Origin: Tachypleus tridentatus
Lineage: Eukaryota; Arthropoda; Merostomata; Xiphosura; Limulidae
DNA: 64,000 bases
Assembly (NCBI RefSeq): GCF_004210375.1
Contig: NC_134837.1
Coordinates: 15,693,798-15,757,797, forward strand
Direction: 5' to 3'
Below, piece after piece: positions 20,346-47,090 of the stretch. Position 1 is the stretch's first letter; each line of letters begins with the position of its first letter. Below the pieces are notes generated by a model that was given only the letters and a program-made list of their open reading frames with translations, did no database searches and had not been told where the DNA came from. Position numbers and translations under genes: made by a program.

Positions 20346-20351
20346 AGTTGA

Positions 20352-21375: not shown

Positions 21376-21384
21376 CACACAAAA

Positions 21385-21995
21385 TACTATCTAATATGGA
21401 TGGAAAACACTCAATAATGCAGTAGAAGAAAATAATCTTGTAGTAGTGGTGGATATGTCACTCAAGCCAGTGAACCTGTGCTATGTAAGTAAATCTAATA
21501 TCAGTGTAGGGCATATTTATAAACATGTTGGTTACAAGTCCAAAGAAACAATATTGTCTCCATACAAGTCACTAGTTAGGCCTAACTTGATATACTGCGT
21601 TCAGTTTAGGTTTTATTTTCTAAGAAAGGATATTGATTTACTGAAAAGGGTACCGAAGACGGTTACTAGGATGATTCCAAGAATGGAAGGGTTAACTTAT
21701 AGTAACAGGTTAAGATTTATTAACAGAATTTCTATTAAGAAAACAAAGATATAAAGTAATCTTATTGCAGCTCGCAAGGTTATTTGAGCTGTCAACAGAA
21801 TAAAGGCTACTCGTATCTTTTTCACATCTCTTTAAGATGCATTCTGAAAATAATAGAACGAATTGGCATATGTTTAAAATTTACAAAAGATGCGATAGAC
21901 TCCATTTAAGACAGTTTTGCTTTTTTAACAATGTGATTAACTTAACTCCCTGTCGACAAGTCTGTAGGTCAGTACTTTACAAGAGTTTAAGACAA
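21385..21995 (+). pseudogene. broken 3' end of a LINE (non-LTR retrotransposon) reverse transcriptase ORF
   Basis: The translation resembles the conserved C-terminal region of the reverse-transcriptase ORF in jockey/CR1-type LINEs. It runs through VVVVDMSLKP, IYKHVGYKSKE, SLVRPNLIYCVQF, LRKDIDLLKRV and GLTYSNRLR (up to 21,754), and continues after a frame change with KIYKRCDRLHLRQF and NNVINL (21,855-21,995). The frame closes at 21,752, then the matching order resumes in a different frame, so at least one frameshift and several stops are present. The catalytic palm (FADD box), the N-terminal half and ORF1 are absent, so this is a dead, 5'-truncated copy. The match is from memory of the family's conserved motifs. 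I am fairly sure of the class and unsure of the clade. Confidence 0.75.
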
Positions 21996-22620
21996 TTAAA
22001 ATGATTTCATGGAATTAAAGGATAAGCATATTTCATTAAAAACAAAAAGGTCATAAATCTGTCAAATGTTATTTAGGTTTTTACTTTTCCAAAGGGTGTG
22101 TCTGAAAGGGCAACTTTGAATGAAAAATGGTCTTTAATTGTCCTTATGCTATCTTGTTTTGTTCAATGTGTAAATGAAAGAGAAATACTTACGTCATAGA
22201 TGCAATAGGTAAAAGCACAGTCGCAGTGTTTGAAGGAAAGTGAGTAGTCGGTGAAATATTATTCAATTTTGATGCAATAACTGAAGTTCGTGCATTCTTA
22301 AGGGGTGTTCTAATTTGCAGTGACATATTTACTTCTCGTGTTTTGTGACAGAATGTGAGTTGTCACATATCATCTGTGACTCCCACGAATATGGGTGTTC
22401 GGCTCGTTTTAATTCGTTACTTTAAGAATTCCTTTAAGATAGTTTTTCCATAACTTAAAGACTGACATTAATATCCACTTATTGGCTACGTTCTTGCTGA
22501 ACAAGTTATTTCGTCTTCTTTAAAGTATGGTACGAAAGAAACGAGGAAACAAATGACATGAAGTTTCATTAAAACTGATGTAACATTGATCTGACACACG
22601 TAGCCTAAAGCTACGTCAGG
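21996..22620. other. interval with a doubtful minus-strand exon candidate
   Basis: On the minus strand, 22,362-22,193 is open for 56 codons with a Ser/Thr/Asn-rich translation (contains NNISPTTHFPSNTATVLLP). It ends exactly at a consensus donor, GAC|GTAAGT (intron would start at 22,192). A stop at 22,365-22,363 bounds it upstream, and I see no strong acceptor there. I treat it as unproven. Confidence 0.2.
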
Positions 22621-22906
22621 TGTTTGTTTGTTTATTTGTTTTGAATTTCGTGCAAAGGTACACGAGGGCTATCTGCGCTAGCCGTCCCTAATTTAGAAGT
22701 GCAACTCTAGAGAGGGAAGGCAACTAGTCCTCACCACCCACCGCCAACTTTTGGGCTACTTTTTTTACCAACGAATAGTAGGATTGACAATCACATTATA
22801 ACGCCCTCACTGCTGAAAGGGCGAGCATGTTTGGTGTGACGACGATTCGAACCCACGACCCTCAGATTACGAGTCGAGTGCCTTAACCACCTGGCCATGC
22901 CGGGCC
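22621..22906 (-). mobile_element. SINE family A, full length
   Basis: Nearly consensus reverse copy from TGTTTGTTTGTTTATTTG to CCATGCCGGGCC, with clear B-box complement (GATTCGAACCC). Confidence 0.95.
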
Positions 22907-23229
22907 TATGTTAGTTGGGTATAAAATAAGTGCAACGCCTCTTCAAGTTCTTTTCAATAGAGTTGGTGTCGTTCGGATGAACTAGTTTAAGGACAAGCAC
23001 TTTATTTCACTTAAATGTATCTTACACTACCTAATATACTGTACTGCTTGTTGCACGATGTTATACATTGTAAATAATACACGAGAATGTGTTAATTGAC
23101 ATGATATAAGCACTTCTGGCCGTCTTTAAAATAACTGTAGAGTATGGTTTTGGTCAAAATTATAATAATAAAGGAAAATCGTTGTCAGGGTGTTTCTGTT
23201 GCTAGCCAATATTTACCTACGTGAGACAT
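22907..23229. other. interval, nothing recognised
   Basis: No supported feature. Confidence 0.35.
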
Positions 23230-23840
23230 GTAACGTTTTAGAAAAATCATTAAACTAACACCAACTGAAACCGAATTTATTTTATAATAACACTCATCTT
23301 AGTAGTTTGTATAAACCTATTATATCGTATGATAGCATCCATACAATTAAATTATTGAAACGAGGTGTATGTTATGATACAACACATAAAAGTAGTTTGC
23401 TAAAACCAAGTTATCCTTTAATAACCCTTGCAAATAATTTGTCAAAATCAAGTTATCCTTTAATAACCCTTGCAAATAATTTGTGGAAACCTTGTATTTC
23501 TGTTAATAACACCTATAGAAAGGTTTGTGGAAACCTTGTGTTTCTGATAATAACACCTATAGAATAGTTTGATTAAACCTAGTGTAATTTAAAATATCAC
23601 CAATCTTGGTACGTTAATGGAATCTTGGGTATCTTATAACAACACCCATTATAGTAGTTAGTTTAAGTCTGGTCATACCATATAAATAATTTGCTAAAAC
23701 CTTTGCATAGTATTCACTTTCTTCACGAGTAATTTTTAAAAAATATCTATCGTATAGCACAATAGCATCCACAAAAGTGGCTTATAAATCCTATTGTATC
23801 TTATAATAACGATCACGCATATTGTTATCTGAACTCTGAA
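23230..23840. repeat. degenerate ~43-bp tandem repeat
   Basis: The best units, at 23,395-23,580, alternate two sub-types: AAGTTATCCTTTAATAACCC then TTGCAAATAATTTG, and ACCTTGT(A/G)TTTCTG then ATAACACCTATAGAA. Each is locally duplicated. Weaker units (TAAACCTATT..., ATAACACCCATT...) extend about 150-260 bp to each side. Confidence 0.65.
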
Positions 23841-24239
23841 AATGAAAACGAGTTCTTATTTCGTCTTTATCCATAATAACATTTTTTTTCTACGCTTATT
23901 TTTAGGCATTCTCACTTAATGAACAAAGATGTTGGACGTAAGTGTTTATGTAGTGAAATTCCGTTTTTGTTTATTAACCAATATCATTATTTTGTCATAG
24001 GTAGCATGAATAATATATTCTTAAGTGGTTATTTTAATGGTTGCATGTTATTCTCTGTTTTCATCTAATCGTAGCACTACCAATGTACTGACACTCACAA
24101 GAATATCCACGTGTTTTATTGGGAAACTGTGATTTTTTAGCGATACTACACAGGGTTTGTTTTAATTATAAGTAGTTTCCAATATGGTACATTGTATTTG
24201 TAAGATTGTTGTCTACACTAGATATTTTGTTTGTCATTA
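23841..24239. other. interval, nothing recognised
   Basis: No supported feature. Confidence 0.35.
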
Positions 24240-24434
24240 ATATATATTGTCTAGAAGATGATAAAGTTTCGGAGTAAACTTACACAAGCATTCTCTTACG
24301 TTATAAAAAGTATTTATTACACACCTTATTTACAACGTCAATCAATAAATACTTACCACACATTTCCCAAGAGGCATTTACTCACAACATCTTTCGGTAA
24401 AAATTTATTTCATAATACTTTAAATGACATTTAT
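24240..24434. repeat. outermost decayed left edge of the 29-bp satellite
   Basis: Scattered remnants of the satellite unit are visible (ACATTTCCCAAGAGGCATTTACTC, GACATTTATTCTACAAAACC) without a regular period. This is the transition from unique DNA to the array. Confidence 0.5.
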
Positions 24435-24653
24435 TCTACAAAACCTTCCAAGCAATAGTTACTTTGTGAATAGTAATAAACATTTGCTCCAAACTTTCCG
24501 AAAAATCATTGATTCCACAACATCTTATTAAAAAACTTTCCACTAAATCTTCCAAGAGATATTTATCCTATAATGACTCTAAAAATAGTCTCATTTCATA
24601 ACATCTCCAACGCCATTAATTTCTCCAAAGCTTTCAAGCATGCGTTTGCTCCA
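24435..24653. repeat. satellite linker, copy 1 (native left edge)
   Basis: 219 bp starting TCTACAAAACCTTCCAAGC and ending GCATGCGTTTGCTCCA. It contains pieces related to the 29-bp unit (CTTCCAAGAGATATTTATCC), so it is itself decayed satellite. Three further near-identical copies lie inside the array. Because this copy adjoins the unique flank through more decayed units, it is probably the ancestral one. Confidence 0.9.
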
Positions 24654-25490
24654 CCACATCTTCCAAACAGAGATTTATTTCCACACGTCTTCCAAAGAGA
24701 CATTTATTTCCACATGTCTTCTAAACAGACATTTATTTCCACACGTCTTCCAAACAAACATTTATTTCCACACGTCTTCCAAACAGACATTCATTTCCAC
24801 GCGTCTTCCAAACAGACATTTATTTCCACACGTCTTCCAAACAGACATTTATTTCCACGCGTCTTCCAAACAGACATTTATTTCCACACGTCTTCCAAAC
24901 AGACATTCATTTCCACGCGTCTTCCAAAGAGACATTTATTTCCACATGTCTTCCAAAGAGACATTTATTTCCACACGTCTTCCAAAGAGACATTTATTTC
25001 CACACGTCTTCCAAACAGACATTTATTTCCACACGTCTTCCAAACAAACATTTATTTCCACACGTCTTCCAAACAGACATTCATTTCCACGCGTCTTCCA
25101 AACAGACATTAATTTCCACGCGTCTTCCAAAGAGACATTTATTTCCGCATGTCTTCCAAACAGACATTTATTTCCACGCGTCTTCCAAACAGACATTCAT
25201 TTCCACGCGTCTTCCAAACAGACATTCATTTCCACGCGTCTTCCAAACAGACATTTATTTCCACATGTCTTCCAAAGAGACATTTATTTCCACACGTCTT
25301 CCAAAGAGACATTTATTTCCACACGTATTCCAAAAAGACATTCATTTCCACGCGTCTTCCAAAGAGACATTTATTTCCACACGTCTTCCAAACAGACATT
25401 CATTTCCACGCGTCTTCCAAAGAGACATTTATTTCCACACGTCTTCCAAACAGACATTCATTTCCACGCGTCTTCCAAACAGACATTTAT
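24654..25490 (+). repeat. 29-bp satellite, block 1 (about 29 units)
   Basis: The unit begins ACATTTATTTCC, continues with a CACACGTC/CACGCGTC core and ends TTCCAAACAG or TTCCAAAGAG. Units here are a mixture of variants, including many ATTCATTT forms. The plus strand lacks all three stop words, so several long open frames overlap; none is credible as a gene. Confidence 0.97.
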
Positions 25491-25710
25491 TCTACAAAAC
25501 CTTCCAAGCAATAGTTACTTTGTGAATAGTAATAAACATTTGCTCCAAACTTTCCGAAAAAATCATTGATTCCACAACATCTTATTAAAAAACTTTCCAC
25601 TAAATCTTCCAAGAGATATTTATCCTATAATGACTCTAAAAATAGTCTCATTTCATAACATCTCCAACGCCATTAATTTCTCCAAAGCTTTCAAGCATGC
25701 GTTTGCTCCA
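25491..25710. repeat. satellite linker, copy 2
   Basis: 220 bp, nearly identical to copy 1. It has one extra A in the CCGAAAAAATC run. Confidence 0.96.
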
Positions 25711-28700
25711 CCACATCTTCCAAACAGAGATTTATTTCCACACGTCTTCCAAACAAACATTTATTTCCACACGTCTTCCAAACAGACATTCATTTCCACG
25801 CGTCTTCCAAAGAGACATTTATTTCCACACGTCTTCCAAACAGACATTTATTTCCACGCGTCTTCCAAACAGACATTTATTTCCACATGTCTTCCAAAGA
25901 GACATTTATTTCCAGACGTCTTCCAAAGAGACATTTATTTCCACACGTCTTCCAAACAGACATTTATTTCCACACGTCTTCCAAAGAGACATTCATTTCC
26001 ACGCGTCTTCCAAAGAGACATTTATTTCCGCATGTCTTCCAAACAGACATTTATTTCCACGCGTCTTCCAAACAGACATTCATTTCCACGCGTCTTCCAA
26101 ACAGACATTTATTTCCACGCGTCTTCCAAACAGACATTTATTTCCACGCGTCTTCCAAAGAGACATTTATTTCCACACGTCTTCCAAACAGACATTCATT
26201 TCCACGCGTCTTCCAAACAAACATTTATTTCCACATGTCTTCCAAAGAGACATTTATTTCCAGACGTCTTCCAAAGAGACATTTATTTCCACACGTCTTC
26301 CAAACAGACATTTATTTCCACACGTCTTCCAAAGAGACATTCATTTCCACGCGTCTTCCAAAGAGACATTTATTTCCGCATGTCTTCCAAACAGACATTT
26401 ATTTCCACGCGTCTTCCAAACAGACATTTATTTCCACGCGTCTTCCAAACAGACATTTATTTCCACGCGTCTTCCAAACAGACATTTATTTCCACGCGTC
26501 TTCCAAAGAGACATTTATTTCCACACGTCTTCCAAACAGACATTTATTTCCACATGTCTTCCAAAGAGACATTTATTTCCACGCGTCTTCCAAACAGACA
26601 TTTATTTCCACGCGTCTTCCAAACAGACATTTATTTCCACATGTCTTCCAAAGAGACATTTATTTCCACACGTCTTCCAAAGAGACATTTATTTCCACGC
26701 GTCTTCCAAAGAGACATTTATTTCCACACGTCTTCCAAAGAGACATTTATTTCCACGCATCTTCCAAAGAGACATTTATTTCCACGCGTCTTCCAAAGAG
26801 ACATTTATTTCCACACGTCTTCCAAAGAGACATTTATTTCCACGCGTCTTCCAAACAGACATTTATTTCCACGCGTCTTCCAAACAGACATTTATTTCCA
26901 CGCGTCTTCCAAACAGACATTTATTTCCACACGTCTTCCAAACAGACATTTATTTCCACACGTCTTCCAAAGAGACATTTATTTCCACACGTCTTCCAAA
27001 CAGACATTTATTTCCACGCGTCTTCCAAACAGACATTTATTTCCACACGTCTTCCAAAGAGACATTTATTTCCACACGTCTTCCAAAGAGACATTTATTT
27101 CCACACGTCTTCCAAACAGACATTTATTTCCACGCGTCTTCCAAACAGACATTTATTTCCACACGTCTTCCAAACAGACATTTATTTCCACATGTCTTCC
27201 AAAGAGACATTTATTTCCACACGTCTTCCAAAGAGACATTTATTTCCACGCGTCTTCCAAACAGACATTTATTTCCACACGTCTTCCAAAGAGACATTTA
27301 TTTCCACACGTCTTCCAAACAGACATTTATTTCCACACGTCTTCCAAAGAGACATTTATTTCCACACGTCTTCCAAACAGACATTTATTTCCACACGTCT
27401 TCCAAACAGACATTTATTTCCACACGTCTTCCAAAGAGACATTTATTTCCACACGTCTTCCAAAGAGACATTTATTTCCACACGTCTTCCAAAGAGACAT
27501 TTATTTCCACACGTCTTCCAAAGAGACATTTATTTCCACACGTCTTCCAAACAGACATTTATTTCCACACGTCTTCCAAACAGACATTTATTTCCACGCG
27601 TCTTCCAAAGAGACATTTATTTCCACGCGTCTTCCAAACAGACATTTATTTCCACGCGTCTTCCAAACAGACATTTATTTCCACACGTCTTCCAAACAGA
27701 CATTTATTTCCACACGTCTTCCAAACAGACATTTATTTCCACACGTCTTCCAAACAGACATTTATTTCCACACGTCTTCCAAACAGACATTTATTTCCAC
27801 ACGTCTTCCAAACAGACATTTATTTCCACACGTCTTCCAAAGAGACATTTATTTCCACACGTCTTCCAAAGAGACATTTATTTCCACACGTCTTCCAAAC
27901 AGACATTTATTTCCACACGTCTTCCAAAGAGACATTTATTTCCACACGTCTTCCAAACAGACATTTATTTCCACATGTCTTCCAAACAGACATTTATTTC
28001 CACACGTCTTCCAAACAGACATTTATTTCCACACGTCTTCCAAACAGACATTTATTTCCACGCGTCTTCCAAACAGACATTTATTTCCACACGTCTTCCA
28101 AACAGACATTTATTTCCACACGTCTTCCAAACGGACATTTATTTCCACACGTCTTCCAAAGAGACATTTATTTCCACACGTCTTCCAAACAGACATTTAT
28201 TTCCACGCGTCTTCCAAACAGACATTTATTTCCACACGTCTTCCAAAGAGACATTTATTTCCACACGTCTTCCAAACAGACATTTATTTCCACACGTCTT
28301 CCAAAGAGACATTTATTTCCACACGTCTTCCAAACAGACATTTATTTCCACACGTCTTCCAAACAGACATTTATTTCCACATGTCTTCCAAAGAGACATT
28401 TATTTCCACGCGTCTTCCAAACAGACATTTATTTCCACACGTCTTCCAAACGGACATTTATTTCCACGCGTCTTCCAAACAGACATTTATTTCCACACGT
28501 CTTCCAAACAGACATTTATTTCCCAGACACGTCTTCCAAACAGACATTTATTTCCACACGTCTTCCAAAGAGACATTTATTTCCACACGTCTTCCAAACA
28601 GACATTTATTTCCACGCGTCTTCCAAACAGACATTTATTTCCACACGTCTTCCAAACAGACATTTATTTCCACACGTCTTCCAAACAGACATTTATTTCC

Positions 28701-29618
28701 ACACGTCTTCCAAACAGACATTTATTTCCACACGTCTTCCAAACAGACATTTATTTCCACACGTCTTCCAAACAGACATTTATTTCCACACGTCTTCCAA
28801 ACAGACATTTATTTCCACACGTCTTCCAAACAGACATTTATTTCCACACGTCTTCCAAACAGACATTTATTTCCACACGTCTTCCAAACAGACATTTATT
28901 TCCACATCCAAACAGACATTATTTCCACACGTCTTCCAAACAGACATTTATTTCCACACGTCTTCCAAACAGACATTTATTTCCACACGTCTTCCAAACA
29001 GACATTTATTTCCACACGTCTTCCAAACAGACATTTATTTCCACACGTCTTCCAAACAGACATTTATTTCCACACGTCTTCCAAACAGACATTTATTTCC
29101 ACACGTCTTCCAAACAGACATTTATTTCCACACGTCTTCCAAACAGACATTTATTTCCACACGTCTTCCAAACAGACATTTATTTCCACACGTCTTCCAA
29201 ACAGACATTTATTTCCACACGTCTTCCAAACAGACATTTATTTCCACACGTCTTCCAAAGAGACATTTATTTCCACGCGTCTTCCAAAGAGACATTTATT
29301 TCCACACGTCTTCCAAAGAGACATTTATTTCCACACGTCTTCCAAAGAGACATTTATTTCCACACGTCTTCCAAAGAGACATTTATTTCCACACGTCTTC
29401 CAAACAGACATTTATTTCCACACGTCTTCCAAACAGACATTTATTTCCACACGTCTTCCAAACAGACATTTATTTCCACACGTCTTCCAAACAGACATTT
29501 ATTTCCACACGTCTTCCAAACAGACATTTATTTCCACACGTCTTCCAAACAGACATCTATTTCCACACGTCTTCCAAACAGACATTTATTTCCACACGTC
29601 TTCCAAACAGACATTTAT
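25711..29618 (+). repeat. 29-bp satellite, block 2 (about 135 units)
   Basis: The block runs from a mixed-variant left half through a long tract of near-perfect consensus units (about 28,620-29,240). It ends with a short run of AAAGAG units and then AAACAG units before the next linker. Two indels are visible: an insertion near 28,523 (TTTCCCAGACACG) and a truncated unit near 28,905 (CCACATCCAAACAGACATTA). Continuous plus-strand open frames of over 1,200 codons in all three frames are a consequence of the stop-free unit. Confidence 0.98.
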
Positions 29619-29836
29619 TCTACAAAACCTTCCAAGCAATAGTTACTTTGTGAATAGTAATAAACATTTGCTCCAAACTTTCCGAAAAATCATTGATTCC
29701 ACAACATCTTATTAAAAAACTTTCCACTAAATCTTCCAAGAGATATTTATCCTATAATGACTAAAAAATAGTCTCATTTCATAACATCTCCAACGCCATT
29801 AATTTCTCCAAAGCTTTCAAGCATGCGTTTGCTCCA
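29619..29836. repeat. satellite linker, copy 3
   Basis: 218 bp. It differs from the other copies by a small deletion in ATGACTCTAAAAATAG (here ATGACTAAAAAATAG, 29,757-29,771). This closes one frame that stays open in the other copies. Confidence 0.96.
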
Positions 29837-32800
29837 CCACATCTTCCAAACAGAGATTTATTTCCACACGTCTTCCAAACAGACATTTATTTCCACACGT
29901 CTTCCAAACAGACATTTATTTCCACGCGTCTTCCAAAGAGACATTTATTTCCACACGTCTTCCAAACAGACATTTATTTCCACACGTCTTCCAAACAGAC
30001 ATTTATTTCCACATGTCTTCCAAAGAGACATTTATTTCCAGACGTCTTCCAAAGAGACATTTATTTCCACACGTCTTCCAAACAGACATTTATTTCCACA
30101 CGTCTTCCAAAGAGACATTCATTTCCACGCGTCTTCCAAAGAGACATTTATTTCCGCATGTCTTCCAAACAGACATTTATTTCCACACGTCTTCCAAACA
30201 GACATTCATTTCCACGCGTCTTCCAAACAGACATTTATTTCCACGCGTCTTCCAAACAGACATTTATTTCCACGCGTCTTCCAAAGAGACATTTATTTCC
30301 ACACGTCTTCCAAACAGACATTTATTTCCACGCGTCTTCCAAACAGACATTTATTTCCACATGTCTTCCAAAGAGACATTTATTTCCAGACGTCTTCCAA
30401 AGAGACATTTATTTCCACACGTCTTCCAAACAGACATTTATTTCCACACGTCTTCCAAAGAGACATTCATTTCCACGCGTCTTCCAAACAGACATTTATT
30501 TCCACACGTCTTCCAAACAGACATTTATTTCCAGACGTCTTCCAAACAGACATTTATTTCCACACGTCTTCCAAACAGACATTTATTTCCACACGTCTTC
30601 CAAACAGACATTTATTTCCACACGTCTTCCAAACAGACATTTATTTCCACACGTCTTCCAAACAGACATTTATTTCCACACGTCTTCCAAAGAGACATTT
30701 ATTTCCACACGTCTTCCAAAGAGACATTTATTTCCACACGTCTTCCAAACAGACATTTATTTCCACACGTCTTCCAAAGAGACATTTATTTCCACACGTC
30801 TTCCAAACAGACATTTATTTCCACATGTCTTCCAAACAGACATTTATTTCCACACGTCTTCCAAACAGACATTTATTTCCACACGTCTTCCAAACGGACA
30901 TTCATTTCCACGCGTCTTCCAAACAGACATTTATTTCCACACGTCTTCCAAACAGACATTTATTTCCACACGTCTTCCAAACGGACATTCATTTCCACGC
31001 GTCTTCCAAAGAGACATTTATTTCCACGCGTCTTCCAAACAGACATTTATTTCCACGCGTCTTCCAAACAGACATTTATTTCCACGCGTCTTCCAAACAG
31101 ACATTTATTTCCACGCGTCTTCCAAAGAGACATTTATTTCCACACGTCTTCCAAACAGACATTTATTTCCACATGTCTTCCAAAGAGACATTTATTTCCA
31201 CGCGTCTTCCAAACAGACATTTATTTCCACGCGTCTTCCAAACAGACATTTATTTCCACATGTCTTCCAAAGAGACATTTATTTCCACACGTCTTCCAAA
31301 GAGACATTTATTTCCACGCGTCTTCCAAAGAGACATTTATTTCCACACGTCTTCCAAAGAGACATTTATTTCCACGCATCTTCCAAAGAGACATTTATTT
31401 CCACGCGTCTTCCAAAGAGACATTTATTTCCACACGTCTTCCAAAGAGACATTTATTTCCACGCGTCTTCCAAACAGACATTCATTTCCACGCGTCTTCC
31501 AAACAGACATTTATTTCCACGCGTCTTCCAAACAGACATTTATTTCCACACGTCTTCCAAACGGACATTCATTTCCACGCGTCTTCCAAACAGACATTTA
31601 TTTCCACACGTCTTCCAAAGAGACATTTATTTCCACACGTCTTCCAAACGGACATTCATTTCCACGCGTCTTCCAAACAGACATTTATTTCCACGCGTCT
31701 TCCAAACAGACATTTATTTCCACATGTCTTCCAAAGAGACATTTATTTCCACACGTCTTCCAAAGAGACATCTATTTCCACGCGTCTTCCAAACGGACAT
31801 TCATTTCCACGCGTCTTCCAAACAGACATTTATTTCCACGCGTCTTCCAAACAGACATTTATTTCCACACGTCTTCCAAAGAGACATTTATTTCCACACG
31901 TCTTCCAAACAGACATTTATTTCCAGACGTCTTCCAAAGAGACATTTATTTCCACACGTCTTCCAAACAGACATTTATTTCCACACGTCTTCCAAACAGA
32001 CATTTATTTCCACACGTCTTCCAAAGAGACATTTATTTCCACACGTCTTCCAAAGAGACATTTATTTCCACACGTCTTCCAAAGAGACATTTATTTCCAC
32101 ACGTCTTCCAAAGAGACATTTATTTCCACACGTCTTCCAAACAGACATTTATTTCCACACGTCTTCCAAACAGACATTTATTTCCACGCGTCTTCCAAAG
32201 AGACATTTATTTCCACGCGTCTTCCAAACAGACATTTATTTCCACGCGTCTTCCAAACAGACATTTATTTCCACACGTCTTCCAAACAGACATTTATTTC
32301 CACACGTCTTCCAAACAGACATTTATTTCCACACGTCTTCCAAACAGACATTTATTTCCACACGTCTTCCAAACAGACATTTATTTCCACACGTCTTCCA
32401 AACAGACATTTATTTCCACACGTCTTCCAAAGAGACATTTATTTCCACACGTCTTCCAAAGAGACATTTATTTCCACACGTCTTCCAAACAGACATTTAT
32501 TTCCACACGTCTTCCAAAGAGACATTTATTTCCACACGTCTTCCAAACAGACATTTATTTCCACATGTCTTCCAAACAGACATTTATTTCCACACGTCTT
32601 CCAAACAGACATTTATTTCCACACGTCTTCCAAACGGACATTTATTTCCACGCGTCTTCCAAACAGACATTTATTTCCACACGTCTTCCAAACAGACATT
32701 TATTTCCACACGTCTTCCAAACGGACATTCATTTCCACGCGTCTTCCAAAGAGACATTTATTTCCACGCGTCTTCCAAACAGACATTCATTTCCACGCGT

Positions 32801-35800
32801 CTTCCAAACAGACATTTATTTCCACACGTCTTCCAAAGAGACATTTATTTCCACACGTCTTCCAAACAGACATTTATTTCCACACGTCTTCCAAAGAGAC
32901 ATTTATTTCCACACGTCTTCCAAACAGACATTTATTTCCACGCGTCTTCCAAACAGACATTTATTTCCACATGTCTTCCAAAGAGACATCTATTTCCACG
33001 CGTCTTCCAAACAGACATTTATTTCCACACGTCTTCCAAACGGACATTCATTTCCACGCGTCTTCCAAACAGACATTTATTTCCACACGTCTTCCAAACA
33101 GACATTTATTTCCACACGTCTTCCAAACGGACATTCATTTCCACGCGTCTTCCAAACAGACATTTATTTCCACACGTCTTCCAAACAGACATTTATTTCC
33201 ACACGTCTTCCAAAGAGACATTTATTTCCACACGTCTTCCAAACAGACATTTATTTCCAGACGTCTTCCAAAGAGACATTTATTTCCACACGTCTTCCAA
33301 AGAGACATTTATTTCCACACGTCTTCCAAACAGACATTTATTTCCACACGTCTTCCAAACAGACATTTATTTCCACACGTCTTCCAAAGAGACATTTATT
33401 TCCACACGTCTTCCAAACAGACATTTATTTCCAGACGTCTTCCAAAGAGACATTTATTTCCACACGTCTTCCAAACAGACATTTATTTCCACACGTCTTC
33501 CAAACAGACATTTATTTCCACACGTCTTCCAAAGAGACATCTATTTCCACGCGTCTTCCAAACAGACATTTATTTCCACGCGTCTTCCAAACAGACATTT
33601 ATTTCCACACGTCTTCCAAACAGACATTTATTTCCACACGTCTTCCAAACAGACATTTATTTCCACACGTCTTCCAAACAGACATTTATTTCCACACGTC
33701 TTCCAAACAGACATTTATTTCCACACGTCTTCCAAACAGACATTTATTTCCACACGTCTTCCAAACAGACATTTATTTCCACACGTCTTCCAAACAGACA
33801 TTTATTTCCACACGTCTTCCAAACAGACATCTATTTCCACACGTCTTCCAAACAGACATTTATTTCCACACGTCTTCCAAACAGACATTTATTTCCACAC
33901 GTCTTCCAAACAGACATTTATTTCCACACGTCTTCCAAACAGACATTTATTTACGTCTTCCAGACATTTATTTCCACACGTCTTCCAAACAGACATTTAT
34001 TTCCACACGTCTTCCAAACAGACATTTATTTCCACACGTCTTCCAAACAGACATTTATTTCCACACGTCTTCCAAACAGACATTTATTTCCACACGTCTT
34101 CCAAACAGACATTTATTTCCACACGTCTTCCAAACAGACATTTATTTCCACACGTCTTCCAAACAGACATCTATTTCCACACGTCTTCCAAACAGACATC
34201 TATTTCCACACGTCTTCCAAACAGACATCTATTTCCACACGTCTTCCAAAGAGACATTTATTTCCACGCATCTTCCAAAGAGACATTTATTTCCACACGT
34301 CTTCCAAAGAGACATTTATTTCCACACGTCTTCCAAAGAGACATTTATTTCCACACGTCTTCCAAAGAGACATTTATTTCCACACGTCTTCCAAACAGAC
34401 ATTTATTTCCACACGTCTTCCAAACAGACATCTATTTCCACACGTCTTCCAAACAGACATCTATTTCCACACGTCTTCCAAACAGACATTTATTTCCACA
34501 TGTCTTCCAAAGAGACATTTATTTCCACACGTCTTCCAAAGAGACATTTATTTCCACGCATCTTCCAAAGAGACATTTATTTCCACGCGTCTTCCAAAGA
34601 GACATTTATTTCCACACGTCTTCCAAAGAGACATTTATTTCCACGCGTCTTCCAAACAGACATTCATTTCCACGCGTCTTCCAAACAGACATTTATTTCC
34701 ACGCGTCTTCCAAACAGACATTTATTTCCACGCGTCTTCCAAACAGACATTTATTTCCACACGTCTTCCAAAGAGACATTTATTTCCGCATGTCTTCCAA
34801 ACAGACATTTATTTCCACGCGTCTTCCAAACAGACATTCATTTCCACGCGTCTTCCAAACAGACATTTATTTCCACGCGTCTTCCAAACAGACATTTATT
34901 TCCACGCGTCTTCCAAAGAGACATTTATTTCCACACGTCTTCCAAACAGACATTTATTTCCACATGTCTTCCAAAGAGACATTTATTTCCACGCGTCTTC
35001 CAAACAGACATTTATTTCCACGCGTCTTCCAAACAGACATTTATTTCCACATGTCTTCCAAAGAGACATTTATTTCCACACGTCTTCCAAAGAGACATTT
35101 ATTTCCACGCGTCTTCCAAAGAGACATTTATTTCCACACGTCTTCCAAAGAGACATTTATTTCCACGCATCTTCCAAAGAGACATTTATTTCCACGCGTC
35201 TTCCAAAGAGACATTTATTTCCACACATCTTCCAAAGAGACATTTATTTCCACGCGTCTTCCAAACAGACATTCATTTCCACGCGTCTTCCAAACAGACA
35301 TTTATTTCCACGCGTCTTCCAAACAGACATTTATTTCCACGCGTCTTCCAAACAGACATTTATTTCCACACGTCTTCCAAAGAGACATTTATTTCCACAC
35401 GTCTTCCAAACGGACATTCATTTCCACGCGTCTTCCAAACAGACATTTATTTCCACACGTCTTCCAAAGAGACATTTATTTCCACACGTCTTCCAAAGAG
35501 ACATTTATTTCCACACGTCTTCCAAACAGACATTTATTTCCACGCGTCTTCCAAACAGACATTTATTTCCACGCGTCTTCCAAACAGACATTTATTTCCA
35601 CATGTCTTCCAAAGAGACATTTATTTCCACACGTCTTCCAAAGAGACATCTATTTCCACGCGTCTTCCAAACGGACATTCATTTCCACGCGTCTTCCAAA
35701 CAGACATTTATTTCCACGCGTCTTCCAAACAGACATTTATTTCCACACGTCTTCCAAAGAGACATTTATTTCCACACGTCTTCCAAACAGACATTTATTT

Positions 35801-38089
35801 CCAGACGTCTTCCAAAGAGACATTTATTTCCACACGTCTTCCAAACAGACATTTATTTCCACACGTCTTCCAAACAGACATTTATTTCCACACGTCTTCC
35901 AAAGAGACATTTATTTCCACACGTCTTCCAAAGAGACATTTATTTCCAGACGTCTTCCAAAGAGACATTTATTTCCACACGTCTTCCAAAGAGACATTTA
36001 TTTCCACACGTCTTCCAAACAGACATTTATTTCCACACGTCTTCCAAACAGACATTTATTTCCACGCGTCTTCCAAAGAGACATCTATTTCCACGCGTCT
36101 TCCAAACAGACATTTATTTCCACGCGTCTTCCAAACAGACATTTATTTCCACACGTCTTCCAAACAGACATTTATTTCCACACGTCTTCCAAACAGACAT
36201 TTATTTCCAGACGTCTTCCAAACAGACATTTATTTCCACACGTCTTCCAAACAGACATTTATTTCCACACGTCTTCCAAACAGACATTTATTTCCACACG
36301 TCTTCCAAAGAGACATTTATTTCCACACGTCTTCCAAAGAGACATTTATTTCCACACGTCTTCCAAACAGACATTTATTTCCACACGTCTTCCAAAGAGA
36401 CATTTATTTCCACACGTCTTCCAAACAGACATTTATTTCCACATGTCTTCCAAACAGACATTTATTTCCACACGTCTTCCAAACAGACATTTATTTCCAC
36501 ACGTCTTCCAAACGGACATTCATTTCCACGCGTCTTCCAAACAGACATTTATTTCCACACGTCTTCCAAACAGACATTTATTTCCACACGTCTTCCAAAC
36601 GGACATTCATTTCCACGCGTCTTCCAAAGAGACATTTATTTCCACGCGTCTTCCAAACAGACATTCATTTCCACGCGTCTTCCAAACAGACATTTATTTC
36701 CACACGTCTTCCAAAGAGACATTTATTTCCACACGTCTTCCAAACAGACATTTATTTCCACACGTCTTCCAAAGAGACATTTATTTCCACACGTCTTCCA
36801 AACAGACATTTATTTCCACGCGTCTTCCAAACAGACATTTATTTCCACATGTCTTCCAAAGAGACATCTATTTCCACGCGTCTTCCAAACAGACATTTAT
36901 TTCCACACGTCTTCCAAACGGACATTTATTTCCACACGTCTTCCAAACAGACATTTATTTCCACACGTCTTCCAAACAGACATTTATTTCCACACGTCTT
37001 CCAAACAGACATTTATTTCCACGCGTCTTCCAAACAGACATTTATTTCCACACGTCTTCCAAAGAGACATTTATTTCCACGCGTCTTCCAAACAGACATT
37101 TATTTCCACGCGTCTTCCAAACAGACATTTATTTCCACACGTCTTCCAAACAGACATTTATTTCCACACGTCTTCCAAACAGACATTTATTTCCACACGT
37201 CTTCCAAACAGACATTTATTTCCACACGTCTTCCAAACAGACATTTATTTCCACACGTCTTCCAAACAGACATTTATTTCCACACGTCTTCCAAACAGAC
37301 ATTTATTTCCACACGTCTTCCAAACAGACATTTATTTCCACACGTCTTCCAAACAGACATTTATTTCCACACGTCTTCCAAACAGACATTTATTTCCACA
37401 CGTCTTCCAAACAGACATTTATTTCCACACGTCTTCCAAACAGACATTTATTTCCACACGTCTTCCAAACAGACATTTATTTCCACACGTCTTCCAAACA
37501 GACATTTATTTCCACACGTCTTCCAAACAGACATTTATTTCCACACGTCTTCCAAACAGACATTTATTTCCACACGTCTTCCAAACAGACATTTATTTCC
37601 ACACGTCTTCCAAACAGACATTTATTTCCACACATCTTCCAAACAGACATTTATTTCCACACGTCTTCCAAACAGACATTTATTTCCACACGTCTTCCAA
37701 ACAGACATCTATTTCCACACGTCTTCCAAAGAGACATTTATTTCCACGCATCTTCCAAAGAGACATTTATTTCCACACGTCTTCCAAAGAGACATTTATT
37801 TCCACACGTCTTCCAAAGAGACATTTATTTCCACACGTCTTCCAAAGAGACATTTATTTCCACACGTCTTCCAAACAGACATTTATTTCCACACGTCTTC
37901 CAAACAGACATTTATTTCCACACGTCTTCCAAACAGACATTTATTTCCACACGTCTTCCAAACAGACATTTATTTCCACACGTCTTCCAAACAGACATTT
38001 ATTTCCACACGTCTTCCAAACAGACATCTATTTCCACACGTCTTCCAAACAGACATCTATTTCCACACGTCTTCCAAACAGACATTTAT
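29837..38089 (+). repeat. 29-bp satellite, block 3 (about 285 units)
   Basis: The largest block. Its internal order suggests two modules. A mixed-variant part leads to a consensus tract (about 33,600-34,200), followed by a characteristic group with CTATTT, AAAGAG and CACGCATC variants (34,190-34,480). The same order then repeats, with a consensus tract at about 37,130-37,640 and the same end group at 37,690-37,870. One malformed unit sits within the first consensus tract (33,951-33,964, TTTACGTCTTCCAGACA). All three plus frames stay open for about 2,650-2,790 codons. Confidence 0.98.
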
Positions 38090-38308
38090 TCTACAAAACC
38101 TTCCAAGCAATAGTTACTTTGTGAATAGTAATAAACATTTGCTCCAAACTTTCCGAAAAATCATTGATTCCACAACATCTTATTAAAAAACTTTCCACTA
38201 AATCTTCCAAGAGATATTTATCCTATAATGACTCTAAAAATAGTCTCATTTCATAACATCTCCAACGCCATTAATTTCTCCAAAGCTTTCAAGCATGCGT
38301 TTGCTCCA
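38090..38308. repeat. satellite linker, copy 4
   Basis: 219 bp, essentially identical to copy 1, including the CTCTAAAAATAG stretch that is shortened in copy 3. Confidence 0.96.
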
Positions 38309-41300
38309 CCACATCTTCCAAACAGAGATTTATTCCCACACGTCTTCCAAACAAACATTTATTTCCACACGTCTTCCAAACAGACATTCATTTCCACGCG
38401 TCTTCCAAAGAGACATTTATTTCCACACGTCTTCCAAACAGACATTCATTTCCACGCGTCTTCCAAACAAACATTTATTTCCACATGTCTTCCAAAGAGA
38501 CATTTATTTCCAGACGTCTTCCAAAGAGACATTTATTTCCACACGTCTTCCAAACAGACATTTATTTCCACACGTCTTCCAAAGAGACATTCATTTCCAC
38601 GCGTCTTCCAAAGAGACATTTATTTCCGCATGTCTTCCAAACAGACATTTATTTCCACGCGTCTTCCAAACAGACATTCATTTCCACGCGTCTTCCAAAC
38701 AGACATTTATTTCCACGCGTCTTCCAAACAGACATTTATTTCCACGCGTCTTCCAAAGAGACATTTATTTCCACACGTCTTCCAAACAGACATTCATTTC
38801 CACGCGTCTTCCAAACAAACATTTATTTCCACATGTCTTCCAAAGAGACATTTATTTCCAGACGTCTTCAAAGAGACATTTATTTCCACGTCTTCCAAAC
38901 AGACATTTATTTCCACACGTCTTCCAAAGAGACATTTATTTCCACGCGTCTTCCAAACAGACATTTATTTCCACACGTCTTCCAAACAGACATTTATTTC
39001 CAGACGTCTTCCAAACAGACATTTATTTCCACACGTCTTCCAAACAGACATTTATTTCCACACGTCTTCCAAACAGACATTTATTTCCACACGTCTTCCA
39101 AACAGACATTTATTTCCACACGTCTTCCAAACAGACATTTATTTCCACACGTCTTCCAAAGAGACATTTATTTCCACACGTCTTCCAAAGAGACATTTAT
39201 TTCCACACGTCTTCCAAACAGACATTTATTTCCACGTCTTCCAAAGAGACATTTATTTCCACACGTCTTCCAAACAGACATTTATTTCCACATGTCTTCC
39301 AAACAGACATTTATTTCCACACGTCTTCCAAACAGACATTTATTTCCACACGTCTTCCAAACGGACATTCATTTCCACGCGTCTTCCAAACAGACATTTA
39401 TTTCCACACGTCTTCCAAACAGACATTTATTTCCACACGTCTTCCAAACGGACATTCATTTCCACGCGTCTTCCAAAGAGACATTTATTTCCACGCGTCT
39501 TCCAAACAGACATTCATTTCCACGTCTTCCAAACAGACATTTATTTCACACGCGTCTTCCAAACAGACATTTATTTCCACGCGTCTTCCAAAGAGACATT
39601 TATTTCCACACGTCTTCCAAACAGACATTTATTTCCACATGTCTTCCAAAGAGACATTTATTTCCACGCGTCTTCCAAACAGACATTTATTTCCACGCGT
39701 CTTCCAAACAGACATTTATTTCCACATGTCTTCCAAAGAGACATTTATTTCCACACGTCTTCCAAAGAGACATTTATTTCCACGCGTCTTCCAAAGAGAC
39801 ATTTATTTCCACACGTCTTCCAAAGAGACATTTATTTCCACGCATCTTCCAAAGAGACATTTATTTCCACGCGTCTTCCAAAGAGACATTTATTTCCACA
39901 CGTCTTCCAAAGAGACATTTATTTCCACGCGTCTTCCAAACAGACATTCATTTCCACGCGTCTTCCAAACAGACATTTATTTCCACGCGTCTTCCAAACA
40001 GACATTTATTTCCACACGTCTTCCAAACGGACATTTATTTCCACGTCTTCCAAACAGACATTTATTTCCACACGTCTTCCAAAGAGACATTTATTTCCAC
40101 ACGTCTTCCAAACGGACATTCATTTCCACGCGTCTTCCAAACAGACATTTATTTCCACGCGTCTTCCAAACAGACATTTATTTCCACACGTCTTCCAAAG
40201 AGACATTTATTTCCACACGTCTTCCAAAGAGACATCTATTTCCACGCGTCTTCCAAACGGACATTTATTTCCACGCGTCTTCCAAACAGACATTTATTTC
40301 CACGCGTCTTCCAAACAGACATTTATTTCCACACGTCTTCCAAAGAGACATTTATTTCCACACGTCTTCCAAACAGACATTTATTTCCAGACGTCTTCCA
40401 AAGAGACATTTATTTCCACACGTCTTCCAAACAGACATTTATTTCCACACGTCTTCCAAACAGACATTTATTTCCACACGTCTTCCAAAGAGACATTTAT
40501 TTCCACACGTCTTCCAAAGAGACATTTATTTCCACACGTCTTCCAAAGAGACATTTATTTCCACACGTCTTCCAAAGAGACATTTATTTCCACACGTCTT
40601 CCAAACAGACATTTATTTCCACACGTCTTCCAAACAGACATTTATTTCCACGCGTCTTCCAAAGAGACATCTATTTCCACGCGTCTTCCAAACAGACATT
40701 TATTTCCACACGTCTTCCAAACAGACATTTATTTCCACACGTCTTCCAAACAGACATTTATTTCCACACGTCTTCCAAACAGACATTTATTTCCAGACGT
40801 CTTCCAAACAGACATTTATTTCCACACGTCTTCCAAACAGACATTTATTTCCACACGTCTTCCAAACAGACATTTATTTCCACACGTCTTCCAAAGAGAC
40901 ATTTATTTCCACACGTCTTCCAAAGAGACATTTATTTCCACACGTCTTCCAAACAGACATTTATTTCCACACGTCTTCCAAAGAGACATTTATTTCCACA
41001 CGTCTTCCAAACAGACATTTATTTCCACATGTCTTCCAAACAGACATTTATTTCCACACGTCTTCCAAACAGACATTTATTTCCACACGTCTTCCAAACG
41101 GACATTTATTTCCACGCGTCTTCCAAACAGACATTTATTTCCACACGTCTTCCAAACAGACATTTATTTCCACACGTCTTCCAAACGGACATTTATTTCC
41201 ACGCGTCTTCCAAAGAGACATTTATTTCCACGCGTCTTCCAAACAGACATTTATTTCCACGCGTCTTCCAAACAGACATTTATTTCCACACGTCTTCCAA

Positions 41301-44300
41301 AGAGACATTTATTTCCACACGTCTTCCAAACAGACATTTATTTCCACACGTCTTCCAAAGAGACATTTATTTCCACACGTCTTCCAAACAGACATTTATT
41401 TCCACGCGTCTTCCAAACAGACATTTATTTCCACATGTCTTCCAAAGAGACATTTATTTCCACACGTCTTCCAAACAGACATTTATTTCCACACGTCTTC
41501 CAAACGGACATTTATTTCCATGCGTCTTCCAAACAGACATTTATTTCCACACGTCTTCCAAACAGACATTTATTTCCACACGTCTTCCAAACGGACATTT
41601 ATTTCCACGCGTCTTCCAAACAGACATTTATTTCCACACGTCTTCCAAACAGACATTTATTTCCACACGTCTTCCAAAGAGACATTTATTTCACACGTCT
41701 TCCAAACAGACATTTATTTCCAGACGTCTTCCAAAGAGACATTTATTTCCACACGTCTTCCAAAGAGACATTTATTTCCACACGTCTTCCAAACAGACAT
41801 TTATTTCCACACGTCTTCCAAACAGACATTTATTTCCACACGTCTTCCAAAGAGACATTTATTTCCACACGTCTTCCAAACAGACATTTATTTCCAGACG
41901 TCTTCCAAAGAGACATTTATTTCCACACGTCTTCCAAACAGACATTTATTTCCACACGTCTTCCAAACAGACATTTATTTCCACACGTCTTCCAAAGAGA
42001 CATTTATTTCCACGCGTCTTCCAAACAGACATTTATTTCCACGCGTCTTCCAAACAGACATTTATTTCCACACGTCTTCCAAACAGACATTTATTTCCAC
42101 ACGTCTTCCAAACAGACATTTATTTCCACACGTCTTCCAAACAGACATTTATTTCCACACGTCTTCCAAACAGACATTTATTTCCACGTCTTCCAAACAG
42201 ACATTTATTTCCACACGTCTTCCAAACAGACATTTATTTCCACACGTCTTCCAAACAGACATTTATTTCCACACGTCTTCCAAACAGACATTTATTTCCA
42301 CACGTCTTCCAAACAGACATTTATTTCCACACGTCTTCCAAACAGACATCTATTTCCACACGTCTTCCAAACAGACATTTATTTCCGCATGTCTTCCAAA
42401 CAGACATTTATTTCCACGCGTCTTCCAAACAGACATTCATTTCCACGCGTCTTCCAAACAGACATTCATTTCCACGCGTCTTCCAAACAGACATTTATTT
42501 CCACATGTCTTCCAAAGAGACATTTATTTCCACACGTCTTCCAAAGAGACATTTATTTCCACACGTCTTCCAAACAGACATTTATTTCCACACGTCTTCC
42601 AAACAGACATCTATTTCCACACGTCTTCCAAACAGACATCTATTTCCACACGTCTTCCAAACAGACATCTATTTCCACACGTCTTCCAAAGAGACATTTA
42701 TTTCCACGCATCTTCCAAAGAGACATTTATTTCCACACGTCTTCCAAAGAGACATTTATTTCCACACGTCTTCCAAAGAGACATTTATTTCCACACGTCT
42801 TCCAAAGAGACATTTATTTCCACACGTCTTCCAAACAGACATTTATTTCCACACGTCTTCCAAACAGACATTTATTTCCACACGTCTTCCAAACAGACAT
42901 TTATTTCCACACGTCTTCCAAACAGACATTTATTTCCACATGTCTTCCAAAGAGACATTTATTTCCACACGTCTTCCAAAGAGACATTTATTTCCACGCA
43001 TCTTCCAAAGAGACATTTATTTCCACACGTCTTCCAAAGAGACATTTATTTCCACACGTCTTCCAAAGAGACATTTATTTCCACACGTCTTCCAAAGAGA
43101 CATTTATTTCCACACGTCTTCCAAACAGACATTTATTTCCACACGTCTTCCAAACAGACATTTATTTCCACACGTCTTCCAAACAGACATTTATTTCCAC
43201 ACGTCTTCCAAACAGACATTTATTTCCACACGTCTTCCAAACAGACATTTATTTCCACACGTCTTCCAAACAGACATTTATTTCCACACGTCTTCCAAAC
43301 AGACATTTATTTCCACACGTCTTCCAAAGAGACATTTATTTCCACACGTCTTCCAAACAGACATTTATTTCCACACGTCTTCCAAACAGACATCTATTTC
43401 CACACGTCTTCCAAACAGACATTTATTTCCACACGTCTTCCAAAGAGACATTTATTTCCACACGTCTTCCAAAGAGACATTTATTTCCACACGTCTTCCA
43501 AACAGACATTTATTTCCACACGTCTTCCAAACAGACATTTATTTCCACACGTCTTCCAAACAGACATTTATTTCCACACGTCTTCCAAACAGACATTTAT
43601 TTCACACGTCTTCCAAACAGACATCTATTTCCACACGTCTTCCAAACAGACATCTATTTCCACACGTCTTCCAAACAGACATTTATTTCCACACGTCTTC
43701 CAAACAGACATTTATTTCCACACGTCTTCCAAAGAGACATTTATTTCCACACGTCTTCCAAACAGACATTTATTTCCACACGTCTTCCAAACAGACATTT
43801 ATTTCCACACGTCTTCCAAAGAGACATTTATTTCCACACGTCTTCCAAACAGACATTTATTTCCACACGTCTTCCAAACAGACATTTATTTCCACACGTC
43901 TTCCAAAGAGACATTTATTTCCACACGTCTTCCAAACAGACATTTATTTCCACACGTCTTCCAAACAGACATTTATTTCCACACGTCTTCCAAACAGACA
44001 TTTATTTCCACACGTCTTCCAAAGAGACATTTATTTCCACACGTCTTCCAAAGAGACATTTATTTCCACACGTCTTCCAAACAGACATTTATTTCCACAC
44101 GTCTTCCAAACAGACATCTATTTCCACACGTCTTCCAAACAGACATTTATTTCCACACGTCTTCCAAACAGACATTTATTTCCACACGTCTTCCAAACAG
44201 ACATCTATTTCCACACGTCTTCCAAACAGACATCTATTTCCACACGTCTTCCAAACAGACATCTATTTCCACACGTCTTCCAAACAGACATTCATTTCCA

Positions 44301-44464
44301 CATGTCTTCCAAAGAGACATTTATTTCCACACGTCTTCCAAACAGACATTTATTTCCACATGTCTTCCAAACAGACATTTATTTCCACACGTCTTCCAAA
44401 CAGACATTTATTTCCACGCGTCTTCCAAACAGACATTTATTTCCACGCGTCTTCCAAAGAGACA
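38309..44464 (+). repeat. 29-bp satellite, block 4 (about 212 units)
   Basis: The block opens with the same order of variant units as block 2 (AAACAAAC unit, then ATTCATTT plus CGCG units). It is unusually rich in small deletions. CA is missing from CCACACG in several units (near 38,889, 39,234, 39,523, 40,043 and 42,185). TTTCACACG replaces TTTCCACACG near 39,546, 41,691 and 43,603, and one A is missing near 38,869. The last units before 44,464 regain CGCG and CATG variants. It then ends abruptly in GACACAGCTTACTTTTC. Confidence 0.98.
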
Positions 44465-45010
44465 CAGCTTACTTTTCAGAGAAAAATAAAAAAAACAGCT
44501 AATCTTTCTCGAACTTTGTCTTCTTTTGACCTTGGTTTAACTTAATCTTCCTTCATAGGTTTTATATCGCAATTTTTAATATGTAAATTTTTCATGTAAG
44601 CTGTCTTGATCTTTCACAAATGACATTTTTTACCTATCTTTCTAACCATCAGTGAAGATATAACTTCTTATAACTTTTGGAACTTTGGGAATTCAAAAAC
44701 CCATAACCTACGCCAGGTTAAATCCACAGGATTTCTCTTATCGTGACCATGATTAATACAGCGAGGAAAAACTGCCAAACAAAGTTTTACCTTCAAAGAA
44801 CGGCGTATTTCTTTTTGTTTTATCACCATTTACATGGCAGTAAGTGACAAACAACGTTGGCAAGTTCACTCTTTCTAGCAATAGCTGTATATATTTTCTT
44901 GGAAATAAATCTCTGCTGGTGTTTGCATACACACTACACATTGTGTTACGTCAGAATGGAAAGTATTTGGGGTTTGGAAAAGATGAAGTTTTAAATCAGT
45001 GCTTGGAAAC
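44465..45010. other. right flank of the satellite, nothing else recognised
   Basis: Unlike the left side, the right boundary is sharp: after 44,464 only faint satellite-like words remain. A short open frame spanning 44,844-45,116 runs into the MITE and is not credible. Confidence 0.45.
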
Positions 45011-45012
45011 TA

Positions 45013-45252
45013 CAGGGTGTTCGGAAAGTCACTGTGCACTTATATATTTATTAACAGACATGTTTCGATATAGAATACAGGAGGTAAATATGAATGACAA
45101 TTATAAACAATGTTGAAAGTGATCCCCACTGGCATCAGTACAGGTCTGGATCCTTCTTATTTTGTTTCTAAACACTGCTATCAGCTGCTGGCTTGAAATA
45201 GACTGAATAAAATATGATTACAAAACTGCACAGTGACTTTCTGAACATCCTG
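45013..45252. mobile_element. 240-bp mariner/Tc1-type MITE, copy 1
   Basis: The left end is CAGGGTGTTCGGAAAGTCAC and the right end GTGACTTTCTGAACATCCTG; they form ~26-bp imperfect terminal inverted repeats ending at the shared TGCA. TA lies directly outside both ends (45,011-45,012 and 45,253-45,254), the hallmark of Tc1/mariner insertion. It has no transposase, so it is non-autonomous. A second copy of the same length lies at 52,838-53,077. Confidence 0.9.
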
Positions 45253-45257
45253 TATAA

Positions 45258-45900
45258 TAAGTTAGGAAAATTATAGAGCTCCACATCAATGCAGGAAATT
45301 TGGGTGCGCTAATAGAAAGACAGAGCTTTACATAAGTACGGAAAAAGTCACATGCGTTACGAAATTGATGTAGGTTTGAGTCAGTTCAGGGAAATTATTT
45401 TGCGTTAGGAAAATGATGTAGTGTGACATTGTTATTGAATAGTACTGTGTGTTAGGGATATTATAGAGGTGTGTATCGGTTTGTTTGTTTGTTTTTTGAA
45501 TTTCGCACAAAGCTACTCGAGGGCTATCTGTGCTAGCCGTCCCTAATTTAGCAGTGTAAGACTAGAGGGAAGGCAGCTAGTCATCACCACCCACCGCCAA
45601 CTCTTGGGCTACTCTTTTACCAACAAATAGTGGGATTGACCGTAACATTATAACGCCCCCACGGCTGAAAGGGCGAGCATGTTTGGCGCGACGGGGATGC
45701 GAATCCGCGACCCTCAGATTACGAGTCGCACGCCTTAACACGCTTGGCCACGCCGGCCTTGTATCGGTTCAAAAATATCATGCATTAGGAAAATAATGTA
45801 CGGGGAAATTACTGTGGGCGAAATAAAATAAAACTTTATATCAGTAGGAAACGTTCTGTGCGTTAGGAAAATGATAGACTTTTACATGTATATCAATACC
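45258..45900. repeat. degenerate tandem repeat, split by a SINE
   Basis: GCGTTAGGAAAATGAT(G/A) and close variants recur near 45,404, 45,785 and 45,861, with weaker copies (GCGTTACGAAATTGATG; GTGTTAGGGATATTAT). Units are roughly 50-70 bp. The SINE at 45,482-45,759 interrupts the array. Confidence 0.45.
45482..45759 (-). mobile_element. SINE family A, near consensus, 10-bp TSD
   Basis: Reverse copy from TGTTTGTTTG to GGCCACGCCGGCC. TGTATCGGTT at 45,472-45,481 recurs at 45,760-45,769. Little divergence from the family suggests a young insertion. Confidence 0.95.
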
Positions 45901-47090
45901 GAGAAACACTTTAAAAGATGAATTATTTTAAAATATTATTCTGTTGTTAACATATTTTAATGTTATCCCGAATATTTACGATTAACTACTAAAACTAGTT
46001 GATAAAAACTGAAGAAAATATTTCAACATTAACGATAAAAGCAAAGTAAAATAAAGTTAAATTTAAATACTACGTTAATATAACCTGGTTTTATTCAAAA
46101 CGCCCAGCATGGCCAGATTGTTTTACAACAATCTTATAAATATAAAGTAATGATACCTAAGCCAGGTGGTTCGTGTTTGAAGTCCAAAGATAGCAAAAAA
46201 AATGGACTATTTCTTTTCCACATCCGGGGGTTGTGTAATATTAAATTTGAAATTCATTGCCTAAATTTTGTAAACCATTGTTCTATGTAGATAATGTACA
46301 TCTTGTAAATACGTGTAACTTAGTTAATGGAAAAGTAGAGAGAACTCTTTTTGTACTAGAAGCGGAAGACATTTACAGAAACAAATTTAAAATCAAATGT
46401 TCTAGATAAGTTAGTAAGTTTATTGTTGTTTCCTTGGTTTACGTCTTTATACCATTGCTATCTCACATACCTACCATTTATGTTGGAGTTCATTACAAAA
46501 TCAATTTGTGCATGAGGCTAAGTGATACCGAAATACATTAACGTGAGCAACTAGCCATGTAATGGAATTTCTGGATGAGCTGGTCTTGTCGTCTTTGGGT
46601 TGGTGGTTATGCTTTCCCATAATAGTCTTATGCTTGTCCATTTAGAGTCTAAAGTTGAGATTTCTTGCATAATCAGAGGAAAATATTCCGTTGGTTTGGA
46701 AAAAAGACGGATAATTCTCCTCCGATAACTAAAAACAAGTGAAGTACTCACTGGCTTATATTCGAGCCCTCTACATAAACCTCTCAGACATCGTCAGGGG
46801 TCTGATGACCTCTTTTCTGGTTTTTCTAAAAAAAGAAATAAGCGAAAAAATGCATCTCGCGATCTTAAGGCGTGTACATTCAATCGATATCTAACGAAAA
46901 CTCTGTACCATCCGACCTATTTCTTTATCATAGGCACTTCCAAGTAAATATGTTTTTATTTAAAGTATAGATTTTTTGGCATCGTTTGGGAAAGAGTTTG
47001 TGACAGAAATATCCAAGAGATCATCCACCCTAAAATAGCCCGCTGACTTGGCAAAACCAAGAGGTTGGAGCATCGACTGTTACATTTGTA
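45901..47090. other. AT-rich interval, nothing recognised
   Basis: A scrap of SINE A head (CGCCCAGCATGGCCAG) sits near 46,101. A 66-codon minus-strand open stretch (46,551-46,751) has no recognised domain. Confidence 0.35.

Follow-up and report, generated by a model that had tools for sequence, protein, structure and literature searches.

The window analysed here is a 64,000-bp stretch (C13:15,693,798-15,757,797; C13 is 275.9 Mb in length) that contains a tandem array of a 29-bp unit. The array extends from 24,650 to 44,464 (TRF, period 29, 93% matches) and is 19.8 kb long. Decomposition into units gives 664 pieces of 53 kinds, of which 657 are separate units arranged in four blocks of 28, 133, 284 and 212. 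The other pieces are linker, three of them fused to the preceding unit, and the count of about 660 units given in an earlier note on this DNA agrees with 657 separate units and three fused to linkers. Variation among the units is concentrated in a few columns: A/G at position 6, C/T at 7, C/G at 18 and T/C at both 25 and 26. Each of the three forward frames of the array is open, for as much as 2,804 aa, which is not taken as a sign of coding because the unit read forward contains no stop triplet. The arrangement is as follows.

24300..24435, + strand: outer decayed edge of the array, about 64% identity to the unit in the 29-bp register
24436..24650, + strand: linker L1 (the original, in place), 215 bp, 62% identity to the unit consensus
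24651..25491, + strand: block W1, 28 units, left edge common to the second version of the locus, with identity in 11 of 15 aligned units
25492..25707, + strand: linker L2 (first internal copy), 216 bp; L2 and the head of the following block are matched in the second version
25708..29619, + strand: block W2, 133 units, with core copy 1 from 26,491
29620..29833, + strand: linker L3, 214 bp
29834..38090, + strand: block W3, 284 units, with core copies 2 (from 31,110) and 3 (from 34,901) and no linker between them
38091..38305, + strand: linker L4, 215 bp
38306..44464, + strand: block W4, 212 units, with core copy 4 from 39,576 and a sharp right end
14978..64000, + strand: part of the window matched by a 48,270-bp contig; the match continues to 75,585 of the window extended by 30 kb

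The 48,270-bp contig (C13:9,879,596-9,927,865) holds a second version of the locus. It lies inverted, 5.8 Mb from the window, with 500-bp N gaps at both ends. Its 29-bp array measures 8.4 kb and contains three linkers, against 19.8 kb and four linkers in the window; its blocks are referred to below as P1, P2 and P3.

The four linkers of the window are spaced by 4,128 bp (L2 to L3) and 8,471 bp (L3 to L4). Their starts had been placed correctly to within 1 bp by the earlier note, and their length, put at about 219 bp, was set slightly too high (measured, 214-216 bp). They are near-identical, as had also been proposed. Alignment with the second locus gives the same sequence in five copies (L1, L4 and the three of the second locus), with one extra A in L2 and a one-base loss plus a neighbouring change in L3. 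A genome search, the counts of which are lower bounds, returned at least seven linker matches, four in the window and three on the opposite strand at C13:9,914,455-9,918,329.

The linker is itself diverged repeat. In best-scoring alignments held to the 29-bp register, identity to the unit is 62.1% for the linker and 64.2% for the 136 bp from 24,300 to 24,435, then 95.2% for 24,651-25,300. The change to 95% at 24,651 is a step and not a slope. Windows of 150 bp starting at 24,300, 24,400 and 24,500 score 34, 29 and 30 against shuffle maxima of 17, 16 and 16 (60 shuffles each), and those starting to the left of 24,300 score at most equal to the shuffle maximum (60 shuffles each). The earlier view that the first linker is continuous with a decayed flank is thereby borne out. 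To the right of 44,464 no window in the same scan for unit similarity rises above its shuffles.

The internal linkers all begin in the same way. At each of the five internal junctions, counting both versions, a normal unit runs up to GACATTTATT and linker follows, in register; GACATTTATT is the in-phase 10-bp word within which normal unit joins linker at the internal copies. L1 and its counterpart in the second version instead run on leftward into decayed sequence. In addition, the two units that come behind the first unit after L1 are missing from all internal blocks of both versions. The identical junctions support the proposal that the internal linkers derive from the boundary of the array.

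Blocks W2, W3 and W4 are collinear in unit order over 91-161 unit pairs, with SW scores of 81 (W2-W3), 59 (W2-W4) and 145 (W3-W4) against shuffle maxima of 12, 11 and 12 (six shuffles each). W1 and W2 are weakly collinear (SW 13, null maximum 8, six shuffles). The earlier note had named an absence of shared unit order after the linkers as grounds for abandoning its account; order proves to be shared far above shuffles for the second to fourth blocks and weakly between the first and second. Identity between aligned units is 98.7-99.6% among W2, W3 and W4 and between the two W3 halves; random pairs reach 94.7-95.4%, and part of the gap is expected because identical units are preferred in the alignment. 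In 25 of the 28 twenty-unit stretches that start between 26,259 and 34,292, including those that cross L3, one of the three best lags is 283-286 units (the misses start at 30,530, 33,430 and 33,720); the image of L3 at this lag is L4. Lags of 131-152 units match equally well or better over parts of the same region. A higher-order period is present in both versions, at a lag of 285 units in the window (0.438, expected 0.177) and of 44 units in block P2 (0.56, expected 0.223).

The relationship of the four core copies depends on the character used. Their lengths pair copies 1 and 3 and copies 2 and 4, with gaps of 0-2 units within pairs and, between pairs, of 3 units in the first half and 13-15 in the second. 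In a unit-level alignment the point variants place copies 2 and 3 closest together, with 6 and 7 mismatches in the two halves. A MAFFT alignment of the four cores had returned 59 sites in favour of (1,3)(2,4) against 1 for (1,4)(2,3); this result was withdrawn, since the pattern came from gap placement across the 13-15-unit length difference in the second half and the unit-level alignment disagreed. Only the length characters of the (1,3)(2,4) pairing were kept. Core lengths and point variants are both explained by one duplication of about 8.4 kb with later exchange between neighbours, and other orders of events are possible. The origin of the internal linkers by duplication of multi-kilobase segments, and not by unit-by-unit slippage, is supported for L3 and L4, where W2, W3 and W4 are collinear and the 283-286-unit lag applies. 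The step from L1 to L2 is a separate and older event, and W1 and W2 are only weakly collinear. Likewise, the promise of a readable growth history is kept in part: the unit variants form a mosaic among the blocks, core lengths and point variants conflict, and the duplication has been overwritten by conversion-like exchange.

Comparison of the two versions covers the window from 14,978 to the extended position 75,585. With the longer tandem arrays masked, the match to the contig falls into six pieces of 99.36-100% identity. It spans the entire 48,270 bp and stops exactly at the N gap on either side. There are 76 substitutions in 33,902 aligned columns (0.22%) and 72 indels, 60 of which are of 1 bp and, by eye, mostly in homopolymers. 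This suggests residual long-read errors, and some unit indels may consequently not be real. W4 has eight odd unit spacings against two each in W2 and W3, several of them being the loss of AC from CCACACG. The last block of the second version has odd unit spacings similar to those of W4, which may be either real variants or consensus error.

The left edge of the array is common to both versions. W1 and P1 align with an SW score of 20 against 10 (six shuffles), 11 of 15 units being identical, and the best alignment of all pieces is again the left edge (16 columns, 12 identical including the linker piece; 24 against 11, 20 shuffles). Among 593 sliding windows of the longer array, the head of P1 scores best at the head of W1. 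For the head of P2 the top score lies at the head of W2 and is shared by the four offsets that come next; the heads of W3 and W4 score slightly lower. The first capture of the edge is therefore shared by the two versions: these head matches, together with the shared lack of two units, make a single event leading from L1 to L2, older than the split of the versions, the most likely course. The head of P3 corresponds to none of the block heads (rank 376 of 593), so that its linker copy is not traced to any of them. The linker copies that arose later appear to be private to one version or the other.

The interiors have no common order above shuffles. When the first block and the first 13-16 units of the second are set aside, the SW score is 9, against a maximum of 12 in 20 shuffles; within the second version, P2 and P3 share their order (50 against 9). 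A direct comparison of W2 with P2 is marginal (14, null maximum 13), and the right ends of the two versions have a 5-column match, for which there is no shuffle control. The neighbouring arrays serve as controls. In the 30-bp array order is kept between versions (30 of 38 columns identical, 49 against 8), as it is in the short 41- and 48-bp arrays (6 against 3 and 10 against 4). It is not kept in the 38-bp array (7, shuffle 7), which means that loss of order is not peculiar to the 29-bp array. Lengths in the window and the second version are 2,415 and 1,523 bp for the 30-bp array, 661 and 552 bp for the 48-bp array and 1,945 and 1,880 bp for the 38-bp array, and the 41-, 26- and 86-bp arrays are equal in copy number.

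Close copies of the 29-bp unit are found only at this locus and its second version. A 32-base degenerate pattern, allowed up to two mismatches, has 913 matches in the whole 2.17-Gb genome (646 forward, 267 reverse); 646 lie in the window and 267 on the second contig, with none left over. For copies within two mismatches in 32 bases, which is the scope of this claim, the repeat is a single-locus minisatellite. The label of satellite used previously has accordingly been given up, as the arrays at many loci that characterize satellite DNA are absent among such copies.

The surrounding sequence is also rich in repeats, and the 60.6 kb common to both versions form a repeat-dense stretch. Between 17587 and 75369 of the extended window, 15 tandem-repeat loci are recognized by TRF; their periods are 26-112 bp, and some have two copies only. 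The 38-bp minisatellite (47367-49311) is of near-equal length in both versions, and a TRF period of 114 bp (three units) is reported only in the window version. The 30-bp minisatellite (55140-57610) has 81 units in one and 51 in the other, the order being largely kept over 38 columns. An interspersed repeat of about 280 bp, SINE-like in size and density, occurs at 1073-1347, 2791-3075, 13692-13985, 22621-22910 and 45478-45760, with many copies among the matches listed. Scans of the window with Rfam (gathering thresholds) and ARAGORN were empty. Outside the array there are 148 ORFs of 50 aa or more; 10 of them were compared with Pfam, and nothing exceeded the curated cut-offs, the best match being a hAT dimerisation domain (E 0.0016 and 18.7 bits, the cut-off being 21.4). 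Hemocyanin_M exons are present elsewhere in the genome, with 25 matches; for two of these the best-matching solved chains are 1oxy/1lla/1ll1 and 3ixv, from Limulus and a scorpion, and the host is therefore probably a chelicerate.

Taken together, the locus is probably one hypervariable 29-bp minisatellite represented by two alleles, one of 19.8 kb and one of 8.4 kb on a misplaced haplotig, with a history of three steps. In the first, common to both alleles, an unequal in-phase exchange inside GACATTTATT would have fused a normal unit with the decayed edge on the left, so that the array came to contain another copy of that edge (L2). In the second, multi-kilobase tandem duplications in each allele separately would have taken this internal edge with them and so produced L3 and L4 in the window and the third linker in the other allele. 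Finally, local conversion-like exchange among the blocks may have blurred the unit variants, and it is this mosaic that leaves the growth history only partly readable. That the events were unequal exchange, and not replication slippage or break repair, is inferred. Unequal crossover is reportedly the subject of Smith (1976).

The simplest explanation of the second contig is a haplotig carrying the other allele of the same individual, which scaffolding would have placed nearby and reversed. An inverted segmental duplication had been the first choice for the second locus and was dropped once both ends proved to be N gaps. A true inverted duplication 5.8 Mb away would imply much the same history in two paralogs, and its overlap with the allelic reading in all but allele status means that the confidences placed in them are not meant to add up to one. 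The contig is scaffolded on the same chromosome as the window, and an assembly may equally be interrupted where a recent duplication begins or ends. Homology that ends inside contigs beside unique sequence, as expected of a segmental duplication, was nonetheless not found: the contig is wholly homologous and stops exactly at both 500-bp gaps. In addition, 0.22% substitutions fits an ordinary allelic distance, and a Hi-C scaffolder tends to put a haplotig near its homologue. A duplication is thus judged unlikely. Misplaced haplotigs are a known source of false duplications in diploid assemblies, typically homologous over the whole contig, low in divergence and bounded by scaffold gaps, as here; the difference is that this haplotig supplies a second version for ordering events. 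The assembly may hold further false duplications besides C13:9,879,596-9,927,865.

Two further alternatives concern the blocks themselves. Repeated or looped contig paths in a 20-kb repeat could produce a block structure as an artefact of assembly, and in favour of this are the indel pattern, which is that of noisy reads, and the excess of odd unit spacings in W4. Against this, the blocks are not clean copies: at 98.7-99.6% identity they are mosaic, their core lengths differ by 13-15 units, and the internal linker junction recurs on a separate contig, which makes such an artefact quite improbable. Separate copying of each internal linker from the left edge, by gene conversion or insertion, fits near-identical linkers drawn recently from one source. 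It appears the least probable of the explanations considered, given that the left breakpoint is the same in five of five internal copies, that the internal blocks all lack the two units following the first unit of L1, and that collinearity is found on either side of both L3 and L4.

As a hypervariable minisatellite, the locus is of a known kind and unusually informative. MS32 and CEB1 are human examples of hypervariable minisatellites, and 19.8 kb is long for one such locus. As in human MSY1 and similar loci, the unit falls within 9-100 bp and has many variants; if the 48-kb contig is an allele, the length polymorphism (19.8 against 8.4 kb) and the diverse internal order are typical as well. 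The locus described here differs in having a 215-bp decayed edge as an internal marker. For minisatellites the unit size range is given as about 9-100 bp, and the usual germline route of rearrangement as largely interallelic, non-reciprocal exchange (PMC2599865). Alpha-satellite higher-order-repeat arrays offer a second comparison: older repeats are described at the array edges of human centromere 8 (PMC8997354), and a diverged edge, a uniform interior, higher-order periods and poor alignability of haplotypes more generally (PMC8997354, PMC11062924). The present array shares these features but is 20 kb in length, occupies one locus, has a 29-bp unit and shows a decayed layer on the left side only. 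A limited literature search of titles and the openings of abstracts returned no array with copies of its own decayed edge.

As a rule, repeat arrays wipe out the traces of their past. At this locus an internal 215-bp marker present in both versions, the flanks of which differ by 0.22% substitutions, separates one event that preceded their split from later, private-looking ones. It also illustrates that a misplaced haplotig can be useful, and that point variants and structure can disagree on the order of duplications. More speculatively, and with rather little confidence, the decayed edge might be a durable entry point for recombination, captured once in a 10-bp word and then carried by multi-kilobase duplications in separate lineages. 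If this were true, long minisatellites would grow by taking up their own boundary again, and the growth of an array could be timed by its captured edges.
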